34,106 bases of DNA from Parcubacteria group bacterium (GTDB taxonomy: Bacteria > Patescibacteriota > Patescibacteriia > Patescibacteriales > GWC2-42-12), in NCBI GenBank assembly GCA_016188785.1, contig JACPHD010000002.1, forward strand, positions 1-34,106, read 5' to 3'. Within the stretch, counting starts at the first letter, position 1. Each line of letters starts with the position of its first letter. Shown piece after piece: positions 6,055 to 33,875 of this stretch. Below the pieces are notes generated by a model. That model saw only the letters and a program-made list of their open reading frames with translations, was not told the origin of the DNA and did not search any database. The translations under genes were made by a program, and so were the position numbers.

Positions 6055-6519
6055 ATGTCCAACCGCCATTTAGCCAGGACTATTGCCATGCAAACTCTAT
6101 TTTCTTGGGATTTTAACGGCAAGCGAGAAAAAGATTTGTCTGATTTGATTGAGCAGAATTTTAAGCAGTTCGCCCCGAAGTTTAATGATTTCGGTTTTGT
6201 TAAATTTATTGTTAATGCGGTCATAGAAAATTTAGCGGAAATTGACGGATATATTACCAAATACGCCACCGAATGGCCGTTGGATCAAATTACTATAGTG
6301 GATAGGAATATTTTACGAATCGGCGTTTATGAATTGATTTTTGATCAGAATATACCGGCCAAAGTGGCCATTAACGAAGCTATTGAAATTGCTAAAGCTT
6401 TTGGCGGTGAATCGTCCGGTAAGTTCGTTAATGGAGTTTTGGGCGCGATTTATGAAGATGTCGGCCCGACTCTTAAAAAAATAGAAAAACCGGCCGCGGA
6501 GAATATTAATAATTTATGA
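6055..6519 (+). CDS. nusB: Transcription antitermination factor NusB
   Basis: A 154-residue all-helical NusB protein. It starts [20 protein letters not shown] and contains [16 protein letters not shown] and [19 protein letters not shown], then GKFVNGVLG; these are the most conserved NusB segments. NusB with NusE binds boxA in rRNA leaders and supports antitermination. Its stop overlaps the rnc start by 4 bases (ATGA), so both are translated from one message. Pairing an rRNA antitermination factor with RNase III is noteworthy, given the large rRNA gene later in the window. Confidence 0.96.
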
Positions 6520-7208
6520 AGGATTTTTCAAAGTTAGAAGAGGCGCTGGAAATTAAATTTAAAAATCAGGATTTGTTAAAGCAAGCGGTCGTGCATCGGT
6601 CGTATCTTAACGAGCATCCTGATTTTGCCTTGCGCCACAATGAACGTTTGGAATTTTTAGGCGACGCGGTTTTAGAGATAATCGTTACGGAAATTTTGTT
6701 TCACGATTTTATGGAAACGCCGGAAGGCGATCTAACCAACTGGCGCGCCAGTTTAGTTAATTACAAAATGCTTTCCTCTATCGCCGATGAGCTGGGTTTG
6801 GAAAAATATTTATATTTATCCAAAGGCGAATCAAAAGACAAAAACTCCAAAGCCAGGCAGATTATTTTAGCTAACGCCATGGAGGCGGTTATTGGCGCGA
6901 TTTATCTTGACCAAGGCATCAAGCCGGCCAAGAAATTCGTTAAAGCTTTCATTATTTCCAAATTAGATAATATTTTAAAAAATCAGCTTTATCTTGATCC
7001 TAAATCAAAATTTCAGGAAAAAGCCCAGGAGCTTTACGGTATTACGCCGCATTATAAAGTCTTAAGCGAGTCCGGACCTGACCATGATAAGCGCTTTGAA
7101 GTCGGGCTTTATCTGGATAGCCATCTGGTCGCCACGGGCAAGGGAACGAGCAAACAGGAAGCGCAGGTTGACGCGGCTAATCAAGGTTTAACCAATAAGA
7201 ATTGGTAA
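6516..7208 (+). CDS. rnc: Ribonuclease III
   Basis: RNase III cleaves double-stranded RNA, including rRNA precursors. Residues 1-150 form the nuclease domain: [13 protein letters not shown] at about 42-54 is the signature, and [15 protein letters not shown] supplies the second acidic cluster. Residues 155-230 are a double-stranded RNA-binding domain ending [19 protein letters not shown]. At 230 residues it has standard length, with all catalytic acidic residues present. It overlaps nusB by 4 bases. The long hairpins inserted in the 23S gene here are the type of structure RNase III excises in other bacteria. Confidence 0.97.
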
Positions 7209-8295: not shown

Positions 8296-8565
8296 ATGGA
8301 TTTGCATGATTTTATTAAAAAAAGAAAATATTTGATTTGGTGGGTTAAAGATTATGATAAGCTTAAAGCCGAATCAATCGTTGAGGCAACTTTGAATTAC
8401 GGCGACTGGGATGACGTGCAGACGCTCATCAAAATTTTGGGCATTAAAAAGGTGGCTAAAATTTTTCGTGAAAAATCCCAGCCGTCCGAGGTTGGCCGGC
8501 AGAATTATTTTCCCGAAGTAGTACATTATTTTAAGCTGTATTTTAATAAATATTTACCCCGTTAA
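8296..8565 (+). CDS. Small putative antitoxin partner of AbiEii-type toxin
   Basis: An 89-residue protein: MDLHDFIKKRKYLIWWVKDY, then EATLNYGDWDDVQTLIKILG and VVHYFKLYFNKYL. The YLIWW...YGDWDDV...LIKILGIKK pattern matches small proteins commonly found directly upstream of AbiEii-like nucleotidyltransferases. There they are taken to be the cognate antitoxin, perhaps through a winged-helix-like fold. Its last codons (Pro-Arg-stop) are supplied by the CCCCGTTAAAT repeat arm, so the C-terminus may have been altered by the repeat. The partner function is inferred from gene order. Confidence 0.65.
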   Translation: MDLHDFIKKRKYLIWWVKDYDKLKAESIVEATLNYGDWDDVQTLIKILGIKKVAKIFREKSQPSEVGRQNYFPEVVHYFKLYFNKYLPR

Positions 8566-8633
8566 ATATTTTATTAAATGAACATCAAATAATCAAAATA
8601 AAAAAATATGAATTATAAAAAATTTAACGGGGT
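8556..8633. repeat. CCCCGTTAAAT inverted-repeat element spanning antitoxin end and toxin start
   Basis: ACCCCGTTAAAT (8556-8567) and its exact complement (8622-8633) enclose 54 bases. The left arm provides the stop of the upstream gene and the right arm encodes residues 5-9 (KFNGV) of the downstream gene. Equivalent 11-12-bp arms occur at 20841-21010 and 33757-33853. Confidence 0.8.
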
Positions 8634-9243
8634 GCATAAGGAAATATTATCAAACCAACAATTAGAATTATTGCCGTTGCTTAAAATGGCGAATAGAAAT
8701 TTTGGTTTGGTTGGAGGTACGGCTGTCGCCCTGCAAATCGGCCATAGACGATCTATTGATTTTGATCTTTTCTCTTATGAGGAATTTAAAAATAAGGATA
8801 TTCAAAAAAAAGTTGGGCGCGTCGCTAAAATAACCAAAGTGCTGGTTAATAAAACCGGTGAATATACTTTTTTTAGTCAGGACGTGAAAGTTACTTTTTT
8901 TAATTATCCATACAGAATTGAATATGAGAAAAGTTTTGATAAAATAATTAAAATGCCGGATCTGCTGACTTTGGCGGCCATGAAGGCTTTTGCCTTGGGG
9001 CAGCGGGCCAAATGGAAGGATTATGTTGATTTGTATTTTATTATAAAAGATTTTTTTTCTTTTGAAAAAATTTCCCGAAAAAGCAAAGAAATTTTCGGCC
9101 CGGAATTCAACGAAAAATTATTCCGTATACAACTGTCATATTTTAATGACGTCAATTATGAAGAAGAAGTTGAGTTTTTACCCGGCTTTAAAGTAAGCGA
9201 TGAAAAAATCAAAACCAAGCTGGTTGAATTTTCTTTAAATTAA
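8608..9243 (+). CDS. AbiEii/AbiGii-type nucleotidyltransferase toxin
   Basis: A 211-residue DUF1814-type nucleotidyltransferase. GLVGGTAVALQIGHRRSIDF, directly followed by DLFS, is the GG[T/S]-x(n)-DhD core (about residues 35-58), with the acidic pair DFD binding metal and NTP. LLTLAAMKAFALGQRAKWKDYVDLYFI contains the conserved K and D near 115-140. Related AbiEii/MenT enzymes transfer nucleotides to tRNA or other targets and act as toxins. It has the small partner directly upstream, with a repeat between them. The N-terminus (MNYKKFNGVHKE) partly derives from that repeat. Substrate unknown. Confidence 0.85.
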   Translation: MNYKKFNGVHKEILSNQQLELLPLLKMANRNFGLVGGTAVALQIGHRRSIDFDLFSYEEFKNKDIQKKVGRVAKITKVLVNKTGEYTFFSQDVKVTFFNYPYRIEYEKSFDKIIKMPDLLTLAAMKAFALGQRAKWKDYVDLYFIIKDFFSFEKISRKSKEIFGPEFNEKLFRIQLSYFNDVNYEEEVEFLPGFKVSDEKIKTKLVEFSLN

Positions 9244-13657: not shown

Positions 13658-14256
13658 AAACAAAAAACACTTTTAAGACAAAAGTGTGGGAAAATCTCAT
13701 TAAGGGTATATGGCGGATGCCTTGACTCAAGAAGCCGATGAAGGACGTAGCAGCCTGCGATAAGCCTCGGTTAGGTGGCAAGCAACCTTTGATCCGAGGA
13801 TGTCCGAATGGGGAAACCCGCCCCGCCAAAAGCGGGGCGTCCGCCAGCTGAATACATAGGCTGGCGAGACGACTACCCGGTGAATTGAAACATCTTAGTA
13901 GCCGGAGGAAAAGAAAAAAATATTTATTCCCTAAGTAGTGGCGAGCGAACGGGGAACAGTCTAAACCTTTTAAACCGCGTCCCCTGCCACATTGTGGCGG
14001 GAGACTGAAGGAGCTGGGTCCATATGTTTTAAAGGGGTTGCAAGATAGTTATTATCGCTCCCAGAAGAGCGAGGCGGAGGCAATAAAAGTAATTTTCTAG
14101 TTGAAGCGAGCTGGAAAGCTCTGCCAGAGCGGGTGATAGCCCCGTAAGCCAAAGGAATTACTACTCTGCGATAGCATATCTTAAGTACCGCGGGACTCGT
14201 GAAATCCCGTGCGAAGCCGGGTCGACTATGACCCAAGACTAAATACTTCTTGAGAT

Positions 14257-14293
<37 letters not shown>

Positions 14294-14351
14294 CATCCCG
14301 GTAAGGGAGATGAAATAGTATCTGAAACCATATACTTACAAGGAATGGGAG

Positions 14352-14541
14352 CCGTGTCTCACTAACGTTCGACACGGAATTCCTAATTTCTAATTCCTAA
14401 TTCCTAATAAAATGTCTAATTATTTAATGTCCAATGTCAAAAAATATTTGTTGATAATTTGGAGATTAAAGATTTAGTATTTAATTGGAAATTGGAAATT
14501 GGAAATTGGAAATTCACGTGGCGAGCGATAGCGAGACACGG
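14352..14541 (+). other. Intervening sequence in 23S helix 25
   Basis: CCGTGTCTC (14352-14360) pairs with GAGACACGG (14533-14541). The pairing continues imperfectly through flanking CTAACGTTCG and CGAGCGATAG. Inside are AATTCCTAA and AATTGGAAATTGG repeats. The site corresponds to the E. coli helix 25 tip (about nt 545), a classic location for 23S intervening sequences that RNase III removes without religation. Confidence 0.75.
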
Positions 14542-14653
14542 TGACCGTGTGCCTATTGAGGAATGAGCCAACGAGTTTGCTGTATGTGGCTTGCCTAAGT
14601 GCCAAATGGCATGCAGGCGTAGTGAAAGCGAGGGTTAATAGCCCGCCAGGTCT

Positions 14654-14852
14654 TATATTCACAGTATTTAGATATTGCTTCATTCATAGAATTATTTGTA
14701 TTTTTTCCATGGATAACGAATTTTAGATTTATGATTTTCGATTTTTGATTTAAATCTCAAATTGAAAATCTAAAACCGGAAATAAACCATGGTAAATGAA
14801 TAATAATATGAATGAAGCAATATCAAGTTCTATGAACTTTACTGTGATTATA
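14654..14852 (+). other. Long-hairpin insertion in 23S domain II region
   Basis: TATATTCACAGTA (14654-14666) pairs with TACTGTGATTATA (14840-14852). Inside it, an exact 18-bp inverted repeat, GATATTGCTTCATTCATA (14671-14688) with its complement (14807-14824), is followed by further AT-rich complementary words and two CCATGG sites. It lies between sequence matching E. coli nt about 650 and about 665. It predicts an almost continuous hairpin of about 80 bp. Confidence 0.75.
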
Positions 14853-15365
14853 TGTCCTAGGTCGCATATACAAGACCCGAAGCCGTGTGATCTAGCCATG
14901 ATCAGGTTGAACCCTTGAGAAATCAAGGGGGAGGACCGAACCCACTAGCCGTGCAAAACTAGGGGAGGAATCGTGGTTAGCGGTGAAATTCCAATCGAAC
15001 TCGGCAATAGCTGGTTCTCCTCGAAATAGCTTTTGGGCTAGCCTCGAGTGTTCCTTTCAGGGGGTAGAGCACTGAATGAGGGCAGGTCGCAAGATACTGC
15101 CCTTAACCAAACTCCGAATACCTGGAAGTTAAGCTCGGGAGTCAGACTATGGGCGCTAAGGTTCATTAGTCTAAAGGGAAACAGCCCTAATCACAATCTA
15201 AGGTCCCTAAATATAGGCTAAGTGTAAAAGGTGGTGTCGCGACTGCGACAACTAGGAGGTTGGCTTAGAAGCAGCCATCCTTTAAAGAAAGCGTAATAGC
15301 TCACTAGTCAAGTTGCCGCGCGCCGAAAATATATCGGGGCTAAGCATATTACCGAAGATGTGGGC

Positions 15366-15465
15366 GTCCCAGTGCCGATGTTGATACCGATGTTGAGTTT
15401 CGTCCCTGCCGCAATTGCGGTTAGGGACGAGGCCAAAAGGCAGGTAGCAATCTCGGCACTGGGAC
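15366..15465 (+). other. Structured RNA module inserted in 23S helix 45
   Basis: GTCCCAGTGCCGA pairs with TCGGCACTGGGAC to close a 100-nt module. Inside is a hairpin (CGTCCCT...AGGGACG with an inner CCGCAATTGCGG) and the conserved stretch GACGAGGCCAAAAGGCAGGT, which itself makes a GCC-AAAA-GGC mini-hairpin. The position matches E. coli helix 45 (about 1164-1185), the second classic IVS site. A sequence-related module is at 16024-16129. Confidence 0.75.
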
Positions 15466-16023
15466 GCGGTAGAGGAGCGTTCTAAATTCGCTGAAGCTTA
15501 AATGTGAATTTGAGTGGAGGATTTAGAAGAGAGAATGTTGGCATGAGTAGCAAAAAGGCAGGTTAAAACCCTGCCCACCGAAAACTTAAGGTTTCCTGGG
15601 CAACGCAAATCGACCCAGGGTTAGTCGGTCCTAAGACGAGGCCCGTGTAGTGCGGGCGTAGCCGATGGATGAGCTGGTTAATATTCCAGCACTGCCGTAG
15701 TCTGCTGATGGGGGGACGCGGTTTAAAAGTTTGAGCGTTTTTAATGGTATGAACGTTAATGGCGTTGGCGATAGGCCTAGGCAAATCCGGGCCAATATTT
15801 TTCAACGTTGTTGAAAGACAAAGCTTCGGCCGAGTCAATTCAGATGGATAAATCGCCCAGAAAAACCTCTAAGGCCGCTCCGTATATTGCGGAGCAAAAG
15901 GATTATGGCAACCGTACCGTAAACCGACGCAGGTAAGTAAGGCGAGAAGCCTAAGGTGTACGAGAGAACCTTCGTTAAGGAACTCGGCAAAATAGCGGCC
16001 GTAAGTTCGCAATAAGGCCTGCC

Positions 16024-16129
16024 GTCCCCGTGCCGATATTGATCCTTGTGTTGAGCCAAGTCCAGTGCCGAAGTTGCAATTTCGGCGGGGACGAGGCCAA
16101 AAGGCAGGTGTCAATATCGGCATTGGGAC
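16024..16129 (+). other. Second copy of the structured RNA module, in 23S helix 63
   Basis: GTCCCCGTGCCGATATTGA pairs with TCAATATCGGCATTGGGAC. Inside are a hairpin (GTCC...GCCGAA with TTCGGC...GGAC) and the identical 20-nt stretch GACGAGGCCAAAAGGCAGGT found in the helix 45 module. The site replaces the E. coli helix 63 segment (about 1707-1751). Confidence 0.75.
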
Positions 16130-16261
16130 GGCCGCAGCTAAAGAATTCAAGTGACTGTTTAACAAAAACACAGCTCCCTGCTAACTCGCAAGAGGATGTA
16201 TAGGGGGTGATGCCTGGCCAGTGTCCGAACGTTAAGGGGAGAGGTCAGCCGTGCATAGCAC

Positions 16262-16400
16262 GGAAATCCCAATAACCAAATTCCAAATTACAAACAATAT
16301 CAAAATTCAAAATACTAAATTCAAAACGATTTTGTTTAGAAATTATAATTTTGAACATTAGAATTTGTTTGTGATTTGGTACTTGTGATTTGGAATTTCC
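16262..16400 (+). other. AT-rich hairpin insertion in 23S helix 68 region
   Basis: GGAAAT...CAAATTCCAAATTACAAACAA on the left pairs imperfectly with TTGTTTGTGATTTGGTACTT and GTGATTTGGAATTTCC on the right. The adjacent GCCGTGC/GCACGG forms the base. It is the same kind of AT-rich palindrome as the intergenic elements, here inside a transcribed rRNA gene, at a position equivalent to E. coli about 1870-1890. Confidence 0.65.
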
Positions 16401-16457
16401 GCGCTGTGCGCGGCAAAGCTTTAAACCTAAGCGCGGATGAACGCCGGCGATAACTAT

Positions 16458-17212
16458 AAATTGACGGTTGTAGTTATAAAATTTGGCTAAATGCTGGAAA
16501 CTCCGGAGTAAAAAATGTACTCGTCTGAAAAATGGCAGTGAAAATCATTTTTTGTATCCCGCCATTCGGGATGCCGGACAATCAGCAGGAAAGACTCTTA
16601 AAAAATATTATGAGCAATCAAAATTGGTTAAATAAGATTCCATTAGAATGGGGGCATTATTTATCAGGATTTACTGATGGAGAAGGCAGTTTTAATGTTT
16701 CTCTTCGCAGAAGAGAAGATCATCTAATGAAGTGGCAAGTTGTCCTGGCCTTTAATGTTTCCCAAAAAGAATCTTATATACTTTCGCAGCTTAAAAAGCA
16801 TTTAGGTTGTGGAAGAATCCAACAAAGACAAGACGGATTGTTTATGTATGTTTGTTCTAATCCCTTGTCGATTCAAGAACGAGTTATTCCGTTTTTTCGG
16901 AAATTTAATTTTCGTTCTCAACAAAAAAAGAAAAATTTTTCTATTTTTTGCCAGATTGCCGAAAAGATATTCAGAAAAGAACATCTAACTTCTCAAGGCT
17001 TGGCGGAAATTGTCAAACTAAGAGAAAGTTTAAATGAAGGCAGGGGTAGGAAAAGAAAATACGAACAGAGTGATTTTCAAAAATCACAAGAAGAGTATCC
17101 TCAGAGACTATATGCCAAACCGCGAAAATTCAGAAGAGAATTTTTCACGGATGATATAGTCCGATCTCATGGGCAACTATGAGGATCCCGAGAGTGGGTG
17201 ATAACGTGAATG
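16458..17212 (+). ncRNA. Group I intron 1 of 23S (site L1917)
   Basis: The 5' exon ends TAACTAT (16451-16457) and the 3' exon resumes AATCGTCCTAAGG at 17213, matching insertion after E. coli U1917. The intron's GTAGTTA (within 16465-16480) pairs with TAACTAT through a terminal U-G wobble, the required P1 feature. The intron ends with G. Core elements: P (AATGCTGGAAAC) and Q (AATCAGCAGGAAAG) pair GCTG/CAGC as P4; R is CAGAGACTATATGCC near 17104; S is GATATAGTCC near 17153. The endonuclease gene lies between Q and R. Bacterial 23S introns at 1917 are known, for example in Coxiella. Confidence 0.9.
16610..17182 (+). CDS. LAGLIDADG homing endonuclease of intron 1
   Basis: Starting at ATG 16610 (MSNQNWLNKIPLEWGHYLSG) the protein has 190 residues. 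An upstream in-frame ATG at 16532 would have to be translated through the Q core element. A single LAGLIDADG motif is visible, LSGFTDGEGSF, so it likely acts as a homodimer (LAGLIDADG_1 type). It would cut intronless 23S alleles at the insertion site and so spread the intron. The C-terminus (QRLYAKPRKF to TDDIVRSHGQL) is encoded by the intron's own R and S elements, a common economy. Intact frame, so possibly active. Confidence 0.88.
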   Translation: MSNQNWLNKIPLEWGHYLSGFTDGEGSFNVSLRRREDHLMKWQVVLAFNVSQKESYILSQLKKHLGCGRIQQRQDGLFMYVCSNPLSIQERVIPFFRKFNFRSQQKKKNFSIFCQIAEKIFRKEHLTSQGLAEIVKLRESLNEGRGRKRKYEQSDFQKSQEEYPQRLYAKPRKFRREFFTDDIVRSHGQL

Positions 17213-17216
17213 AATC

Positions 17217-17274
<58 letters not shown>

Positions 17275-17732
17275 AACTTGAATACTGTCTCAACGAAGGA
17301 CTCGGTGAAATTGCAAGACGAGTAAAGATGCTCGTTAACCATAGTTGGACGAAAAGACCCCGTGAAGCTTTACTATAACTTGATATTGAGTTAGGGGTAC
17401 GGATGTTCAGTATAGGTGGGAGCCCCGCATTTTGCGGGGCGACAGTGAGATACCACCCTTGCGTGCTTTTAATTCTAACCCAAATCCCGTGAATCCGGGT
17501 TGGGGACAGTATCTGGCGGGTAGTTTGTCTGGGGCGGATGCCTCCCAAAAGGTAACGGAGGCGTTTACAAAGGTTGGCTATCCCGGGATGGAAATCCGGG
17601 AGATAGTGTAAAGGCACAAGCCAGCTTTACTGCAAGACCCGCAAGTCGAGCAGTCGCGAAAGCGGAACTTAGTGATCCGACCGTGCGATATAGGACGGCG
17701 GAAGCTCATCGGATAAAAGCTACTCCGGGGAT

Positions 17733-18654
17733 ACGCTTGTGTCCCTGTCCCGCAGCAATGCGGGACAAAGTACGTGGCTAATAACGGTGAAACCCTTTAT
17801 AAGTCAGAGGTGAATTGTAAAGGGCAATACCGTGGGAAGTTAGAGGGCTTAACATAAAATGTATGAAGTTAAGCAAAAGACAAAAAATGATTATCTATGG
17901 CTTGGTTTTAGGTGATGGTTTTTTGCAAAAAACCGGCTTAAAGAACGCACGTTTGCGCTTGGAGCATTCTGCTAAACAACGTGAATATATGGATTGGATT
18001 TTTCAGTCCCTGTCTAACCTGTTTGAGACAAAACCCAAACCATTGAGCCGTCAGCATCCAAAGACAAAGCAAATTTATCATTATTATAGGCTGCAGAGCC
18101 ATTCTTCGCCTGTGTTTGGTAAATTGCGGCGACAATTTTATTATGATAATCAAAAAATTATTCCGGAAAACATCAATAAATTATTATCAAGCAGATTAAC
18201 TTTAGCGGTTTGGTATATGGATGACGGCTATTATTACCGGCGTGATAAGTCAGCTCATATTTACTTATCGCGGCTTGATCATTTTAGCCGACAAAGATTA
18301 TTGAAATGCCTAAAAGATAATTTTAGCTTATTGGCTAAAATTTACTGCCGGCCTGATAGACGGGCCTGCCAGTTGAATTTTAGCGGTCCAAATAAGGACA
18401 AATTGTTTGAGTTAGTGCGTCCTTATATGATACCGATGTTTAATTATAAATTACCCTCTAACCCCGTATCGACTAAGAGCGAGAAATAATGGAAGCTGTC
18501 AGCTTCATTACTGACAGGCGTTAAGAGCTCAAGATGCCGGTCAATTACACCGGCATAATATGCCGCGCCCCCGCATAATGCGGGGTGAAGATATAGTCAG
18601 TGCTTAAGGTAACTTAAGAAGTAGCCCTGTAATACTGCGGGGCGAAATTAAATG
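17733..18654 (+). ncRNA. Group I intron 2 of 23S (site L2449)
   Basis: The 5' exon ends ACTCCGGGGAT (17732) and the 3' exon starts AACAGGCTAG (18655). This corresponds to insertion after E. coli U2449 in the peptidyl transferase centre. P1: exon GGGGAT with intron GTCCCT (about 17741-17746), with a U-G pair at the splice site. P is AACGGTGAAACCC, Q is CAATACCGTGGGAAG, R is CGTATCGACTAAG, S is GAAGATATAGTCAG (about 18586). The intron ends with G (18654). The P and Q words are shared with introns 3 and 4, so these three are one lineage. Confidence 0.9.
17863..18489 (+). CDS. LAGLIDADG homing endonuclease of intron 2 (two-motif)
   Basis: A 208-residue protein, intact from ATG 17863. The first motif is IYGLVLGDGFL (near residue 11) and the second LAVWYMDDGYY (near residue 114), so it is a single-chain LAGLIDADG_2-type enzyme with two half-sites. 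The gene sits after Q and its last codons (SNPVSTKSEK) overlap the R element. Expected to cut 23S DNA around the peptidyl transferase loop in intronless copies. Related to the broken gene in intron 3 (both share PENINKLL/PNDINKLL and YMDDGY). Confidence 0.9.
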   Translation: MKLSKRQKMIIYGLVLGDGFLQKTGLKNARLRLEHSAKQREYMDWIFQSLSNLFETKPKPLSRQHPKTKQIYHYYRLQSHSSPVFGKLRRQFYYDNQKIIPENINKLLSSRLTLAVWYMDDGYYYRRDKSAHIYLSRLDHFSRQRLLKCLKDNFSLLAKIYCRPDRRACQLNFSGPNKDKLFELVRPYMIPMFNYKLPSNPVSTKSEK

Positions 18655-18716
18655 AACAGGCTAGTCACGCCCAAGCGTCCACAGCGACGGCGTGGTTCGG
18701 CACCTCGATGTCGGCT

Positions 18717-19570
18717 CGTGTAAGGGTCGAGTTATTGAGTAATCGATAACATGTAAATTGGCTAATAACGGTGAAACCCTATTGATGAAACCCAGAAACA
18801 ATAGGGCAATACCGTGGGAAGTTGATTAATTTATATTGTTTATGGTTTTAACTCAAAGACAAATTAATATCATAATAGGATTAATATTGGGGGATGGCGG
18901 ATTAGAAAAAAATGGCAACAATGTTCGCTTAAGAGTGGAGCATGGATTCAGTCAGAAAAAAATATTTAATGTGGTTGTACGGCGAATTAAAAAACATAAT
19001 AAGCCGTCCGCCCCGCATAGTTTCCAGCCGAAGCTCTAAAAGCGGTAAAATTTATTCCAGATGGCATTTTTCAACCCTATCCTTAAAATGTTTAAACTCC
19101 TATTATCATAAGTTTTATCAGAAGGCTAAAAAAGTAGTTCCTAATGATATAAATAAACTATTAATATCGCCTTTGAGTTTAGCGATTTGGTACATGGATG
19201 ATGGTTATCGGCGCAATGATTGCAGAGCGTTGCGCATTAGTAGCGATTCATTTAACTATAATGAACAAATTAAACTCACTAGTTGTTTAAATAGTAACTT
19301 TACTATTAATTGCAAGTTGCATAAAAAAGCCGGCGCTTGGAATATATACATACCGGTTAAAAGTTCTGATAGTTTTTGTACTCTAGTCAAACCATATATC
19401 ATACCATCAATGCGATATAAATTAATTTAACCCCGTATCGACTGATTCCGCAAGGATGAGATGGAAGGTACCTGATAATCAGGAAATAAACTTCCATCAT
19501 ATGCCAACCCCTGTTAATTTTAATGGGGTGAAGATATAGTCAGTGCCATTAGTAATAATGGAATAATATG
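18717..19570 (+). ncRNA. Group I intron 3 of 23S (about site L2511)
   Basis: The 5' exon ends GATGTCGGCT (18716) and the 3' exon resumes CGTCGCATCCTGGGGG (19571). Intron GGTCGAG (18725-18735) pairs with exon GTCGGCT, giving U-G at the splice site and setting the site after E. coli U2511. The intron ends with G. P is AACGGTGAAACCC, Q is CAATACCGTGGGAAG, R is CGTATCGACTGATT, S is GAAGATATAGTCAG. It shares the downstream GGTACCTGATAATCAGG block with intron 4. The preceding exon is only 62 nt. Confidence 0.88.
18842..19430 (+). pseudogene. LAGLIDADG homing endonuclease of intron 3, one frameshift
   Basis: The ATG at 18842 gives MVLTQRQINIIIGLILGDGG (first motif), and the frame is lost at a run of seven A (about 18957-18963). 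The next frame continues KKYLMWLYGELKNIISRPPR through LAIWYMDDGYR (second motif) to a stop at 19428-19430. Six A in the run would give an uninterrupted protein of about 196 residues, similar to the intron 2 enzyme. The stop lies just before the R element. It is a pseudogene, a product of polymerase slippage at A7, or a homopolymer sequencing error. Confidence 0.85.
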
Positions 19571-19595
19571 CGTCGCATCCTGGGGGTGGAGAAGC

Positions 19596-19648
<53 letters not shown>

Positions 19649-19715
19649 CCGTCGTAAGACAGGTCGGTCTCCTATCTACTATGGTCGCGGAAACTTGAGA
19701 AGGACACTCTTTAGT

Positions 19716-20494
19716 AGACCCTGACGGGTTATGCTACTTGCGGGAGTAATCCCGCATGACAATACGGCTAATAACGGTGGAAGCTTTAAAATATTTATGG
19801 TACAATATATGTGAGGACCATAAATATTAAGTCAATACCGTGGGAAGTCGATCAAATATTACAAATAAAACATCCGAACTCGCCTATATTGCTGGTTTTT
19901 TAGACGGCGATGGCAGTTTGATGCTGCAAATAAAAAAACGAAGCGACTCCAAGCGAGGCTGGCGTTTCATGGCTACAATCTGTTTATATCAAGACAGTCG
20001 ACACGATAAGCCGCTTTATTGGATGAAGAGTCGTTTAGGTATCGGTTATATATCAAAGAGAAATGATAATATTACAGAACTACGCATTAACGGATACAAG
20101 CAATGCAATAAAATATTGCGTAAATTGTATCCGTTTATAAAGTTTAAGCAGCCACAGATTAAATCATTGCTTAAGGCGATTGATATATTAATCAGGAAGC
20201 CGCTAGATAAGCTGACTCGCGGTGACCGGAAAAAATTATTATTTTGTATAATGACCATACAAAATTTTAATTATCAATCTCCGAGAAAAAGATCGATTGA
20301 GCAACTTAAAAAAATATTTGATTTGACCCCGTAACGACTGATTTACTCCCGAATTTTCGGGAAAATGAGATAGAAGGTACCTGATAATCAGGATTTAAAC
20401 TTCTATCATATGCCGTCACCCTACCCCGCTTATAATTTAAGCGGGCAAGAGGGTGAAGATATAGTCTATGCATCTAGTGATAGATGATAACATG
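19716..20494 (+). ncRNA. Group I intron 4 of 23S, inside the sarcin-ricin loop (about L2656)
   Basis: The 5' exon ends CTCTTTAGT (19715) and the 3' exon resumes ACGAGAGGACC (20495). Joined, they recreate the sarcin-ricin sequence AGTACGAGAGGACC, so the intron lies between the equivalents of U2656 and A2657. It ends with G. P is AACGGTGGAAGC, Q is CAATACCGTGGGAAG, R is CGTAACGACTGATT, S is GAAGATATAGTC. The P1 I can find is short (GCTA with TAGT, including U-G). The 3' part is very like intron 3. Confidence 0.85.
19840..20334 (+). CDS. LAGLIDADG homing endonuclease of intron 4
   Basis: The open frame encodes 164 residues with one motif, LAYIAGFLDGDGSL, at residues 14-27; this suggests an I-CreI-like homodimer. 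No ATG is available. The only sensible start is a GTG at 19840 that lies inside the conserved Q element. The stop TAA (20332-20334) lies inside the R element (CCCCGTAACGACTG). The gene therefore exactly fills the space between two catalytic core parts. Predicted target: the sarcin-ricin loop DNA of intronless 23S genes. Confidence 0.85.
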   Translation: MGSRSNITNKTSELAYIAGFLDGDGSLMLQIKKRSDSKRGWRFMATICLYQDSRHDKPLYWMKSRLGIGYISKRNDNITELRINGYKQCNKILRKLYPFIKFKQPQIKSLLKAIDILIRKPLDKLTRGDRKKLLFCIMTIQNFNYQSPRKRSIEQLKKIFDLTP

Positions 20495-20786
20495 ACGAGA
20501 GGACCGAGAGTGACGAAGCTCTAGTGTACCAACTGTCCCACCAGGGGCACCGCTGGGTAGCTATCTTCGGTTAGGATAAACGCTGAAAGCATCTAAGCGT
20601 GAAGCCGTCTTCAAGATTAGGTTTCATAGGCTGGTCAGAGAATATGACCTTGATAGGCTCTAGGTGTAAGGCCCGCGAGGGTTTGAGCCGAGGAGTACTA
20701 ATAAGCCATTTGATTTTCCCACATTTTTGTTTTAAAAAATTATATAAAAAAGCGCCATAGTTCTGGTGCTTCTAGCGACGAGGCCA

Positions 20787-20822
20787 CCCGCCCGAACGAC
20801 TGAAGTCGTTCAGTCGGGCGGG
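20787..20822 (+). other. 36-nt hairpin inserted in outer 5S
   Basis: CCCGCCCG/CGGGCGGG encloses AACGACT-GA-AGTCGTT. Deleting exactly these 36 nt restores the same length between GAGG and CCCATCC as in the inner 5S. The GC-rich arms resemble the hairpin at 23856-23885. Confidence 0.75.
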
Positions 20823-20837
20823 CACCTGATCCCATCC

Positions 20838-21010
20838 TTCACCCCGTTAAATTTTTTGTGTTTAATGTCTCCGGTGCTTCTAGCGACGAGGTCATACCCG
20901 TTCCCATCCCGAACACGGAAGTCAAGCTCGTCAGCGCTGATGGTACTTGGGCATAAGCCCCGGGAGAGTAAGTCAGTGCCGGGGACTTTAAACATAAATA
21001 TTTAACGGGG
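20838..21010. repeat. Inverted-repeat-flanked insertion in 5S loop C, carrying a full 5S gene
   Basis: Arms CCCCGTTAAAT (20842-20852) and ATTTAACGGGG (21000-21010), plus inner TGTTTAA/TTAAACA, surround the inner 5S. The arms are the same as those of the elements at 8556-8633 and 33757-33853, which suggests one repeat family that here contains a 5S gene as cargo. Confidence 0.75.
20867..20986 (+). rRNA. rrf: Inner complete 5S rRNA
   Basis: GTCTCCGG (20867-20874) pairs with CCGGGGAC (20979-20986), closing a 120-nt 5S. Internal landmarks are GCGACGAGGTCAT, CCCGTTCCCATCCCGAACAC, GAAGTCAAGCTC, GCGCTGATGGTACTTGGG and GGGAGAGTAAGTC. This is the best-formed 5S copy in the window and most likely the functional one. 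Confidence 0.93.
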
Positions 21011-21121
21011 CAAGCTCAGAAGTTAAGCTCGTCAGCGCCGATGGTACTTGGACATTAGTCCTGGGAGAGTAGGCCAGCGCCGGAACCATGGTGCTTTTTT
21101 AATTGGAAAAATTTTTTCCGC

Positions 21122-22059: not shown

Positions 22060-22275
22060 GTAAGCAGATGGGAATTGTGCTCGCGGTTACGGCTTCGGGC
22101 AACCGCATCTCGCGTTTCTAAGAATCAGTATATCGGTAGTTAAGGCTTCCGGTAGAGTATTTTTAGAAATTTGAAAAGAAGATACTCGGTGCAAAGTATT
22201 GGCGGGCTTTGATGGCCTCGAATAAAATACAACCCCAAGAGTATTCAAGGGGTGGTGGACTAGACGATACTTTGT

Positions 22276-22404
22276 ACAATTTTGATCGATGATGACCGTA
22301 ACCGCAAGGTGGCCTACTTCAACTGGAATGGCAAGCGGTGGGTACTCAACTTCAATTGGCTCGACAACAACTTCAACGACAATGATCGATTCGTTCGTCC
22401 CCGC
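22276..22404 (+). repeat. DGR template repeat (TR)
   Basis: TR would translate to VAYFNWNGKRWVLNFNWLDN and onward, NNFNDNDRFVRPR. Most adenines sit in AAC/AAT codons, which cannot mutate to stops by adenine changes. Two AAG codons can, and one has become TAG in VR. TR's last base coincides with the end of the avd stop codon on the other strand. Confidence 0.95.
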
Positions 22405-22763
22405 TAGTATCTTCTTACTCCTCCCGTAATCGGAGGAGTTTCTTTTATTAGCTGTCTTTGCCAGCCGCCCAGCATTTTGCCTATTTCAACTAGAGGCGCG
22501 GACAGTTCGGCGAATTTTTTGTTGTCAATCGCTTTAAGCTCCCAAGCGATTTGGATAAAAAATTTTAGCAAATCTAATTTTAATGAAGCCTTTTTAATAA
22601 TTACCGCCTTATTTTCTTTGGCGGCGAAGCCGGCCGTGAAGATAAGTTCCGCCAGCTCAATAAATAATAAATTAATTTTTTCGCTCAAAGAGTAGCGAGT
22701 TAACCTTTGGATGTGCGGCAGAATGTTATGCCATAATTTGTAAGCTTCGGCGGTCTTTTGCAA
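22404..22763 (-). CDS. avd: DGR accessory variability determinant (Avd), four-helix bundle
   Basis: A 119-residue helical protein: QKTAEAYKLWHNILPHIQRL, then KLDLLKFFIQIAWELKAIDN and LVEIGKMLGGWQRQL. These are hallmark segments of Avd, which forms a pentameric ring with the DGR reverse transcriptase and is needed for template-primed cDNA synthesis. The frame as given starts at TTG 22763, but Avd proteins normally begin a few residues earlier with NLPVLQKT. Here NANLPV is encoded in frame just upstream without a start codon. An ATG at 22821 would supply it if the intervening C-run (G-run on plus) had 10 or 13 bases rather than 11. It ends convergently with TR. Confidence 0.88.
   Translation of the reverse strand: MQKTAEAYKLWHNILPHIQRLTRYSLSEKINLLFIELAELIFTAGFAAKENKAVIIKKASLKLDLLKFFIQIAWELKAIDNKKFAELSAPLVEIGKMLGGWQRQLIKETPPITGGVRRY
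22417..22439 (+). terminator. Terminator after TR
   Basis: ACTCCTCC (22417-22424) pairs with GGAGGAGT (22432-22439), followed by a T-rich run. It lies inside the 3' end of avd on the opposite strand. Confidence 0.65.
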
Positions 22764-22795
22764 GACCGGTAAATTAGCATTGCTAAAATTCCGTT

Positions 22796-22806
22796 GGGGG
22801 GGGGGG
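22796..22806. repeat. Homopolymeric G11 tract between avd and RT starts
   Basis: Eleven consecutive Gs in an AT-rich region. It lies between the avd ATG (22821, minus) and the avd body, and 22 bases before the RT ATG. With 11 C on the avd strand the reading is MPLSKPPPPTEF then stop; with 10 or 13 it enters the Avd frame. Confidence 0.85.
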
Positions 22807-22828
22807 CTTGCTTAAAGGCATTATTATT

Positions 22829-23851
22829 ATGAAAATTCAGCTGGTTCATAAATTTGAAGATATAATTAGTGTTGAAAATTTACTCGCGGCCTGGCGCGAG
22901 TTTATTCGCGGCAAAAGAAACAGGCGGGATGTTCAAGAATTTTTGCTGAACTTAATGGATAATATTTTTGACCTGCATTATTACCTAAAAAGCTTAACAT
23001 ACCGGCACGGCGGTTATCAAGCCTTTAAAATTAATGACCCTAAGCCCAGAGATATTCATAAGGCCAGCGTGCGTGACCGATTATTGCATCATGCGATTTA
23101 CCGGATTCTATATCCGTTTTTTGATAAAACATTTATCGCCGACTCATATTCCTGCCGGATAAATAAAGGCACGCATAAAGCAGTTAATAAGTTTCTCCAG
23201 TATGCCTATATAGTGAGTAAAAACAATACTAAAACTTGCTGGGCGCTAAAAGGCGATATCAGAAAATTTTTTGCCAATATTGACCATGACATATTGATTG
23301 GCAGATTAAGAGAGTATATTCAGGATGAAAAGATTATTTGGCTTTTAAAAAATGTGATCGGCAGTTTCTCGCCCGGACTGCCTTTAGGCAACCTAACTTC
23401 GCAGTTGTTCGTTAATATTTACCTGAATAAGTTTGATCAATTTATTAAGCACAAGTTAAAAGCCAAGTATTATATCCGCTATGCTGATGATTTTGTAATT
23501 TTCTCGGAAAATAAAGAGTGGCTGGAAAATTTAATTGAACCGATAAAGGAATTTTTGCGCCAAGAACTTAAACTGGAACTGCATCCGAATAAAGTTTTTA
23601 TTAAAACCATTGCTTCGGGCGTTGATTTCCTGGGGATGGTTAATTTTTCCGATTATCGGGTTTTTAGGACTAAAACCAAAAGAAGAATGTTAAAGAAAAT
23701 AAGCGACAGATATGGCGAATCGCAGAATGAAATAATTTCCGAAGAATCTTTTAAGCAAAGTCTGCAGTCGTATTTGGGTATGTTGAAGCATTGCCGAGGG
23801 TATAAAGTGGAGAAAAAGATTGAGGCTATATGTGAGACTCCAGCTTCGTGA
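22829..23851 (+). CDS. DGR reverse transcriptase
   Basis: The ATG at 22829 (MKIQLVHKFEDIISVENLLA) gives 340 residues; a TTG at 22808 is less likely. RT motifs in order: VRDRLLHHAIYRILYPFFD, DSYSCRINKGTHKAVNKF, WALKGDIRKFFANIDHDIL, GLPLGNLTSQLFVNIYLN and the catalytic IRYADDFVIF. LGNLTSQ with YADD places it among DGR/retroplasmid-like bacterial RTs. The thumb ends with YLGMLKHCRGYKVEKKIEAI. The last seven residues (CETPAS region) come from a GC-rich repeat. It copies TR RNA with errors at adenines. Start codons of RT and avd are divergent and 7 bases apart. Confidence 0.95.
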   Translation: MKIQLVHKFEDIISVENLLAAWREFIRGKRNRRDVQEFLLNLMDNIFDLHYYLKSLTYRHGGYQAFKINDPKPRDIHKASVRDRLLHHAIYRILYPFFDKTFIADSYSCRINKGTHKAVNKFLQYAYIVSKNNTKTCWALKGDIRKFFANIDHDILIGRLREYIQDEKIIWLLKNVIGSFSPGLPLGNLTSQLFVNIYLNKFDQFIKHKLKAKYYIRYADDFVIFSENKEWLENLIEPIKEFLRQELKLELHPNKVFIKTIASGVDFLGMVNFSDYRVFRTKTKRRMLKKISDRYGESQNEIISEESFKQSLQSYLGMLKHCRGYKVEKKIEAICETPAS

Positions 23852-23855
23852 GATT

Positions 23856-23885
23856 GCCCGCCCGTACCGTTCGGTACGGGCGGGC
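23856..23885. repeat. GC-rich palindromic repeat after RT
   Basis: GCCCGCCCGTACCG (23856-23869) and its complement (23872-23885) form a perfect 14-bp stem with a TT loop. It can act as a terminator-like hairpin. Similar GCCCGCC arms occur inside the outer 5S and in tsaD. Confidence 0.7.
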
Positions 23886-33362: not shown

Positions 33363-33875
33363 TTATATTTTATTTTCGGCTATTTTTTTATTATAAATAT
33401 CTGACCAAAGATTTTCATAATATTGCCAATCCCGCCATTCGCGCATAATAGAAACTTCCAAAGCCACTCGTTTATTTTTTGCTTGAGAGTAAATTAGCCG
33501 TCCGTCTTTAATAATATTAAAGTTGAGCAGGGTTGGCGTTTTTTTATCATTCATTACCACGATGTCAACTTTGGTTTTTAATAGTTTAGCCAAATCAGCG
33601 CTTAACTTTATTTTTAAATTAAAGATATTTTCCGGCTTTAATCCGGGCGTTAACTCTATACCGACATCATAATCGCTGAATTTAGTGGTTTTGCCGGTAG
33701 CTTGCGAACCGAACAGATAAGCATTGATTATAGGATATTTTTTTAAAATTTTTTTTACCCCGTTAAATAAAGCTGCTGATGAAATCGGCGGTAATAAATC
33801 AATCGCAGTCGGTGGTTTAAAGCCTTTGACAAGCGATACAGATTTAACGGGGTTTAGTTGATCAAGTTCTCTCAT
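33363..33875 (-). CDS. MntA-like nucleotidyltransferase antitoxin
   Basis: A 170-residue minimal nucleotidyltransferase. YLFGSQATGKTTKFSDYDVG (about 53-72) is the GS-x10-DxD motif, and KTKVDIVVMND supplies the third Asp. MntA enzymes transfer AMP to HepT and block its RNase activity. The first 40 residues (LNPVKS...LFNGVKK) are extended relative to typical MntA and are encoded by a CCCCGTTAAAT inverted-repeat element, so the N-terminus is probably repeat-derived. Confidence 0.85.
   Translation of the reverse strand: MRELDQLNPVKSVSLVKGFKPPTAIDLLPPISSAALFNGVKKILKKYPIINAYLFGSQATGKTTKFSDYDVGIELTPGLKPENIFNLKIKLSADLAKLLKTKVDIVVMNDKKTPTLLNFNIIKDGRLIYSQAKNKRVALEVSIMREWRDWQYYENLWSDIYNKKIAENKI
33757..33853. 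repeat. CCCCGTTAAAT inverted-repeat element in mntA-like N-terminus
   Basis: ACCCCGTTAAAT (33757-33768) and its exact complement (33842-33853) enclose 73 bases, all within the coding frame. Confidence 0.8.

Follow-up and report, generated by a model that had tools for sequence, protein, structure and literature searches.

The 5S rRNA locus of the window, i.e. the whole 34,106-nt stretch of DNA analysed herein, contains one copy of the gene positioned inside another, raising the question of whether a single transcript yields two 5S rRNAs, or whether one of the two copies has been retired. It lies downstream of a 23S rRNA gene that is rich in group I introns, and belongs to a 1.0-Mb genome assembled in 45 contigs. 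A sequence-only reading of this DNA had proposed a complete 5S gene within a second, twice-interrupted one, with the inner copy being the cargo of a repeat element.

Anatomy of the nested 5S locus

The inner gene matches the Rfam 5S model over its full length and above the gathering score (Table 1), whilst the outer gene, as present in the DNA, does not reach this score. The two flanks repeat the inner gene in nested order, with direct repeats pairing positions 20762-20786 with 20870-20894 (92%) and 20918-20982 with 21019-21083 (86%). Their likeness to the halves of the inner 5S gives scores of 41 and 85, compared to maxima of 28 and 24 across 2000 shuffles, and 94 of 111 aligned positions are identical between the outer and inner genes. 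The proposed architecture is thus borne out, in that a complete 5S lies within a second copy broken by a short hairpin in the loop B region and by a cassette in loop C; the latter insertion had been put at about 173 nt, which is nearly the right size, but measures 177 nt.

Table 1. Positions of features in the window, with the evidence for each
Feature	Position	Strand	Evidence
RNase III gene	6516..7208	+	PF14622 1.6e-40, PF00035
Empty CCCCGTTAAAT hairpin element	8557..8632	.	Arm-copy search
ACCCCGCTTATAATTTAAGCGGGCAAG hairpin, of the same kind	20423..20449	+	Sequence; direct repeat D4 (20435-20449 vs 21000-21014, 87%)
Extended outer helix I, 5′ strand	20745..20770	+	Inverted repeat I2 with 21076-21101, 26 nt, 85% complementary
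Outer (native) 5S, 5′ half, first part	20761..20787	+	92% direct repeat with inner 5S; outer 102/109 identical to 5S of sister genome G001
36-nt CCCGCCCG-type hairpin, outer 5S loop B region	20788..20823	+	Inverted repeats I3/I5, sequence
Outer 5S, 5′ half, second part (ACCTGATCCCATCC, helix III and loop C)	20824..20837	+	Sequence
177-nt cassette TTCACCCCGTTAAAT...5S...ATTTAACGGGGCAAG, loop C apex	20838..21014	+	Sequence; same ends flank tRNA genes elsewhere in genome
Cassette 5′ arm (linker stem)	20838..20869	+	Duplex -27.1 kcal/mol vs shuffled mean -7.1, sd 2.5
Inner complete 5S rRNA gene	20870..20984	+	RF00001 93.2 bits, full model 1-120, gathering score 38
Cassette 3′ arm (linker stem)	20985..21014	+	Linker duplex folding, repeat analysis
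Outer 5S, 3′ half	21015..21087	+	86% direct repeat with inner 5S; weak RF00001 match 20978-21085, 19.5 bits (best overlapping match), below cut-off
Extended outer helix I, 3′ strand, then T run	21076..21101	+	Inverted repeat I2
RT-16 and RT-7 matches	22124-22282		Weak, sub-threshold Rfam
bAvd protein	22404-22763	-	Retroelement-like neighbourhood
Reverse transcriptase	22808-23851	+	RVT_1
CCCCGTTAAAT hairpin element without RNA cargo	33758..33852	.	Arm-copy search

The predicted fold of the full stretch is that of a 5S bearing a second 5S on a long loop C stem, with the outer halves still pairing. The extended helix I that encloses the outer gene is also found around the plain 5S genes of two relatives, G001 and G002, and its 3′ strand, ending in a T run, gives a terminator-like arrangement. 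In the numbering adopted here, the cassette enters the outer gene at about E. coli positions 42-47, within loop C.

The surroundings of the locus display several further features. The 23S rRNA gene (13695-20728) is interrupted by a number of group I introns; in its 3′ part, four of these possess LAGLIDADG endonuclease genes (16532-17182, 17863-18489, 18942-19430 and 19840-20334). The last 23S intron apparently harbours the hairpin at 20423-20449 at the apex of its P8 element. Just downstream of the 5S locus lies a neighbourhood resembling a diversity-generating retroelement (22124-23851), and a second CCCGCCCG...CGGGCGGG hairpin (23857-23884) is located at the end of its reverse transcriptase gene.

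Nested 5S and tRNA genes in related genomes

The sequence-only reading had suggested that related genomes be searched for the same nesting, and it is indeed present in independent genomes of the order and beyond. A 5S search of 60 relatives returned double matches in other families, and reading of the flanks identified the arrangement in G003, G009, G013, G017, G027 and G033, and also in G052. A pattern scan for nested 5S with an intact outer 5′ half found 6 of the 111 genomes of the order, including that of the window. Named records of this order that display the nested 5S are mostly Candidatus Falkowbacteria, which places the window genome among the CPR (Patescibacteria) bacteria. The outer gene is eroded in G003 and G013, and is reduced essentially to its 3′ half in G014 and G057; in near relatives, G001, G002 and G050 among them, the 5S gene is plain. 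Across eight nested 5S loci the linker stems have predicted energies of -27 to -37 kcal/mol, compared to -7 to -12 for shuffled arms, and their arm sequences differ. A scan of 84,980 species genomes added nested 5S genes in several Falkowbacteria, one Buchananbacteria and one Moranbacteria genome. Matches in Pseudomonas Leaf48 and Root562 proved on inspection to be partial tandem-type 5S arrangements rather than nested genes, and one in a Clostridia genome was due to chance and not nested. The Moranbacteria locus (L054) has an extra hairpin in the outer 3′ half and a 5S-like fragment downstream. Elsewhere, at L042 (G008), L048 (G050), L046 (G016) and L036 (G011), repeated or incomplete 5S 3′ ends lie downstream of a plain 5S gene and are possibly remnants of earlier nesting.

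Nesting is not confined to 5S genes. When the CCCCGTTAAAT loci that enclose tRNA genes are read in the tRNA sense, a complete tRNA is found to lie within the anticodon loop of another, cognate tRNA. At least seven fully nested tRNAs occur in the window genome (Val-UAC, Val-CAC, Thr-UGU, Pro-GGG, Glu-UUC, Gly-CCC and elongator Met), giving eight nested loci with the 5S gene, and in four other cases (Val-GAC, Leu-CAG, Arg-CCG and Thr-CGU) one outer half is left. The inner tRNAs are confirmed by Rfam at 53.9-78.7 bits, and for each nested tRNA the inner copy is the sole intact gene found in the genome for its anticodon (for CAU, initiator Met aside). In many cases the insertion separates anticodon bases 35 and 36, and no base has been lost in Thr-UGU, Thr-CGU, Gly-CCC and Trp-CCA.

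With regard to the distribution of nested tRNAs, the pattern matched 28 of the 111 genomes of the order, several of these matches being chance occurrences outside tRNA genes. Inspection confirmed Val-UAC in G007, G035 and G036, Thr-UGU in G027 and G043, Thr-CGU in G043, Ile-UAU in G036 and Phe-GAA in G018. In a sample of the phylum, a narrower pattern matched 10 of 380 genomes; reading confirmed five of these outside the window's class (Val-UAC, Val-CAC, two Ile-GAU and Ile-UAU), and three His-tRNA matches were discarded as chance patterns within a single tRNA. Nesting is three deep for Val-UAC in G036, for Pro-CGG in the same genome, where two successive outer 3′ halves follow, and for Ile-UAU at L255.

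Shared arms and the origin of the two copies

The TTCACCCCGTTAAAT...ATTTAACGGGGCAAG arms are common to the 5S cassette and to tRNA cassettes, and also form empty hairpins in the same genome, whose tRNA loci display three recurring arm types (TTCACCCCGTTAAAT, TTCACCCCGCACC and CCCGCCCG). An exact match to the CCCCGTTAAAT arm occurs 22 times in the 1.0-Mb genome, almost always within facing inverted pairs, as expected of a dispersed palindromic repeat; most of these pairs are hairpins without RNA cargo, and some flank tRNA genes. This supports the suggestion that a repeat element carries the 5S gene, and the arms that had been reported elsewhere in the window are found there as two further CCCCGTTAAAT pairs (Table 1). 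Hairpins of the cassette-arm types are also located in the D loops of outer tRNAs and in loop B of the outer 5S. Directly after a CCCCGTTAAAT hairpin of the window lies an AbiEii-like nucleotidyltransferase gene (8608-9243; PF08843, 3e-9).

REP elements (PMC3733652) are likewise short dispersed hairpins. Their GTAG/CGTC end tag is absent from the element described here, which ends TTCACCCCG...CGGGG, followed by CAAG, TAAA or TGAA. A search for Y1 (RAYT) transposases gave matches in 6 of 7 genomes regardless of nesting, which they do not clearly track. The one weak match in the window genome (G000), a divergent Y1 transposase-like frame (PF01797; G000:C15:1948-2352), is the sole candidate found for moving short palindromes, and such frames are also present in relatives both with and without nesting. 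No integrase gene is present, the 5S gene and the two arms taking up all of the 177-nt 5S cassette and the tRNA cassettes spanning about 105-180 nt, and neither the 5S cassette nor the seven nested tRNA loci, up to an E-value of 0.01, match an intron family in Rfam. A viral origin was also considered and set aside: the arm-plus-tRNA pattern has no match in viral contigs, and matches of the 5S cassette to phage records are of just 60-80% identity, as expected of ordinary deposited 5S genes.

The sister genome G001 carries uninterrupted genes at matching places, with Val-UAC following Leu-GAG in both genomes and the sequence upstream of Val-CAC common to the two. To these genes the outer copies are mostly the closer: Thr-UGU (outer 74/74, inner 59/71), Val-CAC (71/72, 57/77), Val-UAC (69/72, 65/75), Pro-GGG (53/54, 59/74) and the 5S (102/109, 97/113). 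Glu-UUC is reversed (outer 61/68, inner 70/73), and for Gly-CCC neither copy is favoured. By a rough scoring against the tRNAs of the sister or own genome, each outer gene is matched best by a tRNA that shares the isotype of the corresponding inner gene. Since the outer genes match the uninterrupted G001 genes better than the inner ones do, the outer copy is mostly the native gene, and the inner one a divergent cognate copy. A C at T-loop position 55 of the outer tRNAs was rejected as a mark of inactivation, as it is also present in G001, in the native genes for Val-CAC and Thr-UGU.

Phylogenetic analysis of 5S genes, on 115 columns, is in keeping with an incoming origin of some inner copies. 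The inner 5S genes of G000, G013, G017 and G027, which represent four families, form one clade (98/94) adjoining the plain 5S genes found in the window's own family, and the outer gene of G027 groups with that of its congener G050 (100/100). A sister relationship of inner and outer copies is rejected for G000 (p 0.032), G017 (p 0.0003) and G027 (p 0.047), and grouping every inner 5S copy in one clade is neither established nor firmly rejected (AU p 0.052), several tests having been run on this tree. Together these results are good, if not final, evidence that 5S cassettes have moved between lineages.

An alternative is that the gene copies itself, template switching during replication re-copying it into its own loop hairpin, with later divergence and no traffic between genomes. 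This would account for nesting that is always cognate, and it suits G009, where inner and outer 5S are sisters in the best tree (96/96), and G361, where the two are 96% identical. It sits poorly, however, with outer genes that match their sister genes almost perfectly whilst the inner ones differ by 13-26%, and with the clustering of inner genes from four families and the rejection of sisterhood in three genomes; as the general explanation it is thus judged unlikely. As G009 has sister copies and inner-outer sisterhood is not rejected for G033, self-copying or gene conversion also happens. In G033 the inner and outer genes are more similar in their 3′ halves (0.93) than in their 5′ halves (0.82), which suggests gene conversion between the two.

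Disruption and rescue of RNA genes as a proposed explanation

The explanation preferred here, to which a probability of roughly 0.6 is given, is that mobile hairpin cassettes enter the loop apexes of RNA genes, inactivate the host gene and rescue its function with their own copy, following which the outer gene erodes. The nested 5S would then be a single instance of a process that is widespread in these CPR bacteria. Each cassette would comprise a complete RNA gene between two complementary arms, and would insert at a hairpin-loop apex of the corresponding native gene, i.e. the anticodon loop of a tRNA or loop C of 5S. Insertion would kill the outer gene and the divergent inner copy would take over; with the native copy dead and the inner copy in use, the cassette would become indispensable. 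The transcript would fold as a 5S carried on a 5S, from which RNase III, or an enzyme like it, would probably free the inner RNA by cleaving the linker stem. The window contains an RNase III gene (Table 1), making this enzyme a candidate for the task; neither RNase M5 nor RNase E/G, which were also considered, was detected in the window genome. Inner tRNAs would probably be released by RNase P and 3′ trimming. The outer halves would serve at most as a terminator or processing scaffold before eroding.

A cell can survive the interruption of an essential RNA gene present in one copy only where the insertion also delivers a working copy, and so a filter of survivorship alone could produce fully cognate nesting. 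The same filter also predicts loaded cassettes outside RNA genes, of which none was seen; it is therefore likely that the cassettes are directed to loop apexes, or that cargo and target are in some way coupled. The arm-type hairpins at other RNA loops (5S loop B, D loops and the putative P8 apex) fit a bias towards the tips of hairpins.

It might instead be that the outer gene is retained under selection, its fold aiding termination as well as folding and maturation of the inner RNA, such that nesting is itself a processing device. Eight nested 5S loci have preserved both the outer helix I and the linker stem, neither RNase M5 nor RNase E/G was detected, and plain 5S genes likewise end in an extended helix I and T run. 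Conservation is, however, equally explained by recent insertion and gene conversion; moreover, many outer genes bear further hairpins or are cut to one half, and close relatives manage without nesting. A selected scaffold is therefore considered improbable, and somewhat more so than self-copying.

There remains the question of whether both copies work, either through intron-like removal of the cassette and joining of the outer halves, or as an expanded or two-piece outer 5S, with two RNAs from each transcript. In favour of this, the outer halves are almost intact in the window, G017, G033 and G027. Structured insertions in 5S, some of them in loop C, are known as expansion segments (PMC7812874; Halococcus morrhuae, PMC7530397); those of prokaryotes measure 13-109 nt, and uL5 is described as obstructing positions 42-43 (PMC7812874). 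None of these segments is a second 5S, whereas the insert described here is of 177 nt, contains a whole 5S and lies near the blocked positions, and hence is probably not at a site where the ribosome tolerates insertion, as judged from PMC7812874 and our own position numbering. Use of the outer 5S in ribosomes is on this ground unlikely. In addition, the cassettes match no intron family, a second hairpin also splits the outer 5S, and the joined outer halves of Val, Glu and Met would lack an intact anticodon loop, leaving this possibility with very little weight. Given the uL5-blocked site and the erosion of the outer gene in several relatives, the evidence favours an inner 5S that is the working gene and an outer that is the retired native one, over two 5S RNAs per transcript.

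Lastly, although two Pseudomonas scan matches look like partial tandem 5S assemblies and such errors do occur, an assembly artefact or chance alignment can be dismissed almost entirely, as one genome holds eight nested loci, complementary arms lie between the copies, and many independent assemblies share the one architecture, which excludes the collapse at a repeat that the sequence-only reading had named as grounds for refutation.

Nested tRNA or 5S genes were not found described in the open-access literature searched. The survey of 5S expansion segments discarded internally duplicated sequences, and so nested 5S genes could have been passed over (PMC7812874). A survey of insertions in CPR rRNA genes reported zero of ≥100 bp in any 5S gene (PMC11270868). 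The insertion sequences and group I introns described there share with the cassettes the kind of host and rRNA gene targets, but the cassettes match no intron family and hold an RNA gene in place of a homing endonuclease.

As for other elements, several partial parallels exist. The palindromic elements of Rickettsia and the double-hairpin elements of fungal mitochondria are, in the same manner as REP, short dispersed hairpins, and some members of this group are inserted in structured RNA genes, as is the case here; palindromic repeat elements are, however, not known to carry a complete copy of the gene that they interrupt. Integrative elements of tRNA genes likewise damage an RNA gene and bring a replacement, but they bear an integrase and restore a short 3′ end of the target, whereas the cassette has no protein gene and places a whole replacement gene inside the interrupted one. 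Engineered cleave-and-rescue gene drives disrupt an essential gene and, coupled to this, supply a rescue copy that is divergent in sequence. The logic is the same, except that the cassette is natural, involves RNA genes only and has no linked cutting enzyme.

The nesting phenomenon is rated herein as categorically new, on an anatomy and recurrence that are observed and a mobility that is proposed. Whether it amounts to a new class of minimal mobile element, comprising hairpin cassettes free of protein genes that enter essential RNA loop apexes, supply a cognate replacement, are retained by force and drive CPR-wide turnover of tRNA and 5S genes in rounds up to three deep, is an even call. Bacterial tRNA and 5S genes are usually treated as uninterrupted and mostly vertically inherited. 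If true, the explanation proposed would therefore add a new route of gene replacement and of horizontal exchange of translation machinery, would provide a natural parallel to disrupt-and-rescue gene drives, and would account for tRNA and 5S genes whose annotation in CPR genomes is odd or lacking. How insertion finds the apexes of hairpins, and always with a matching gene, would then become a testable question.
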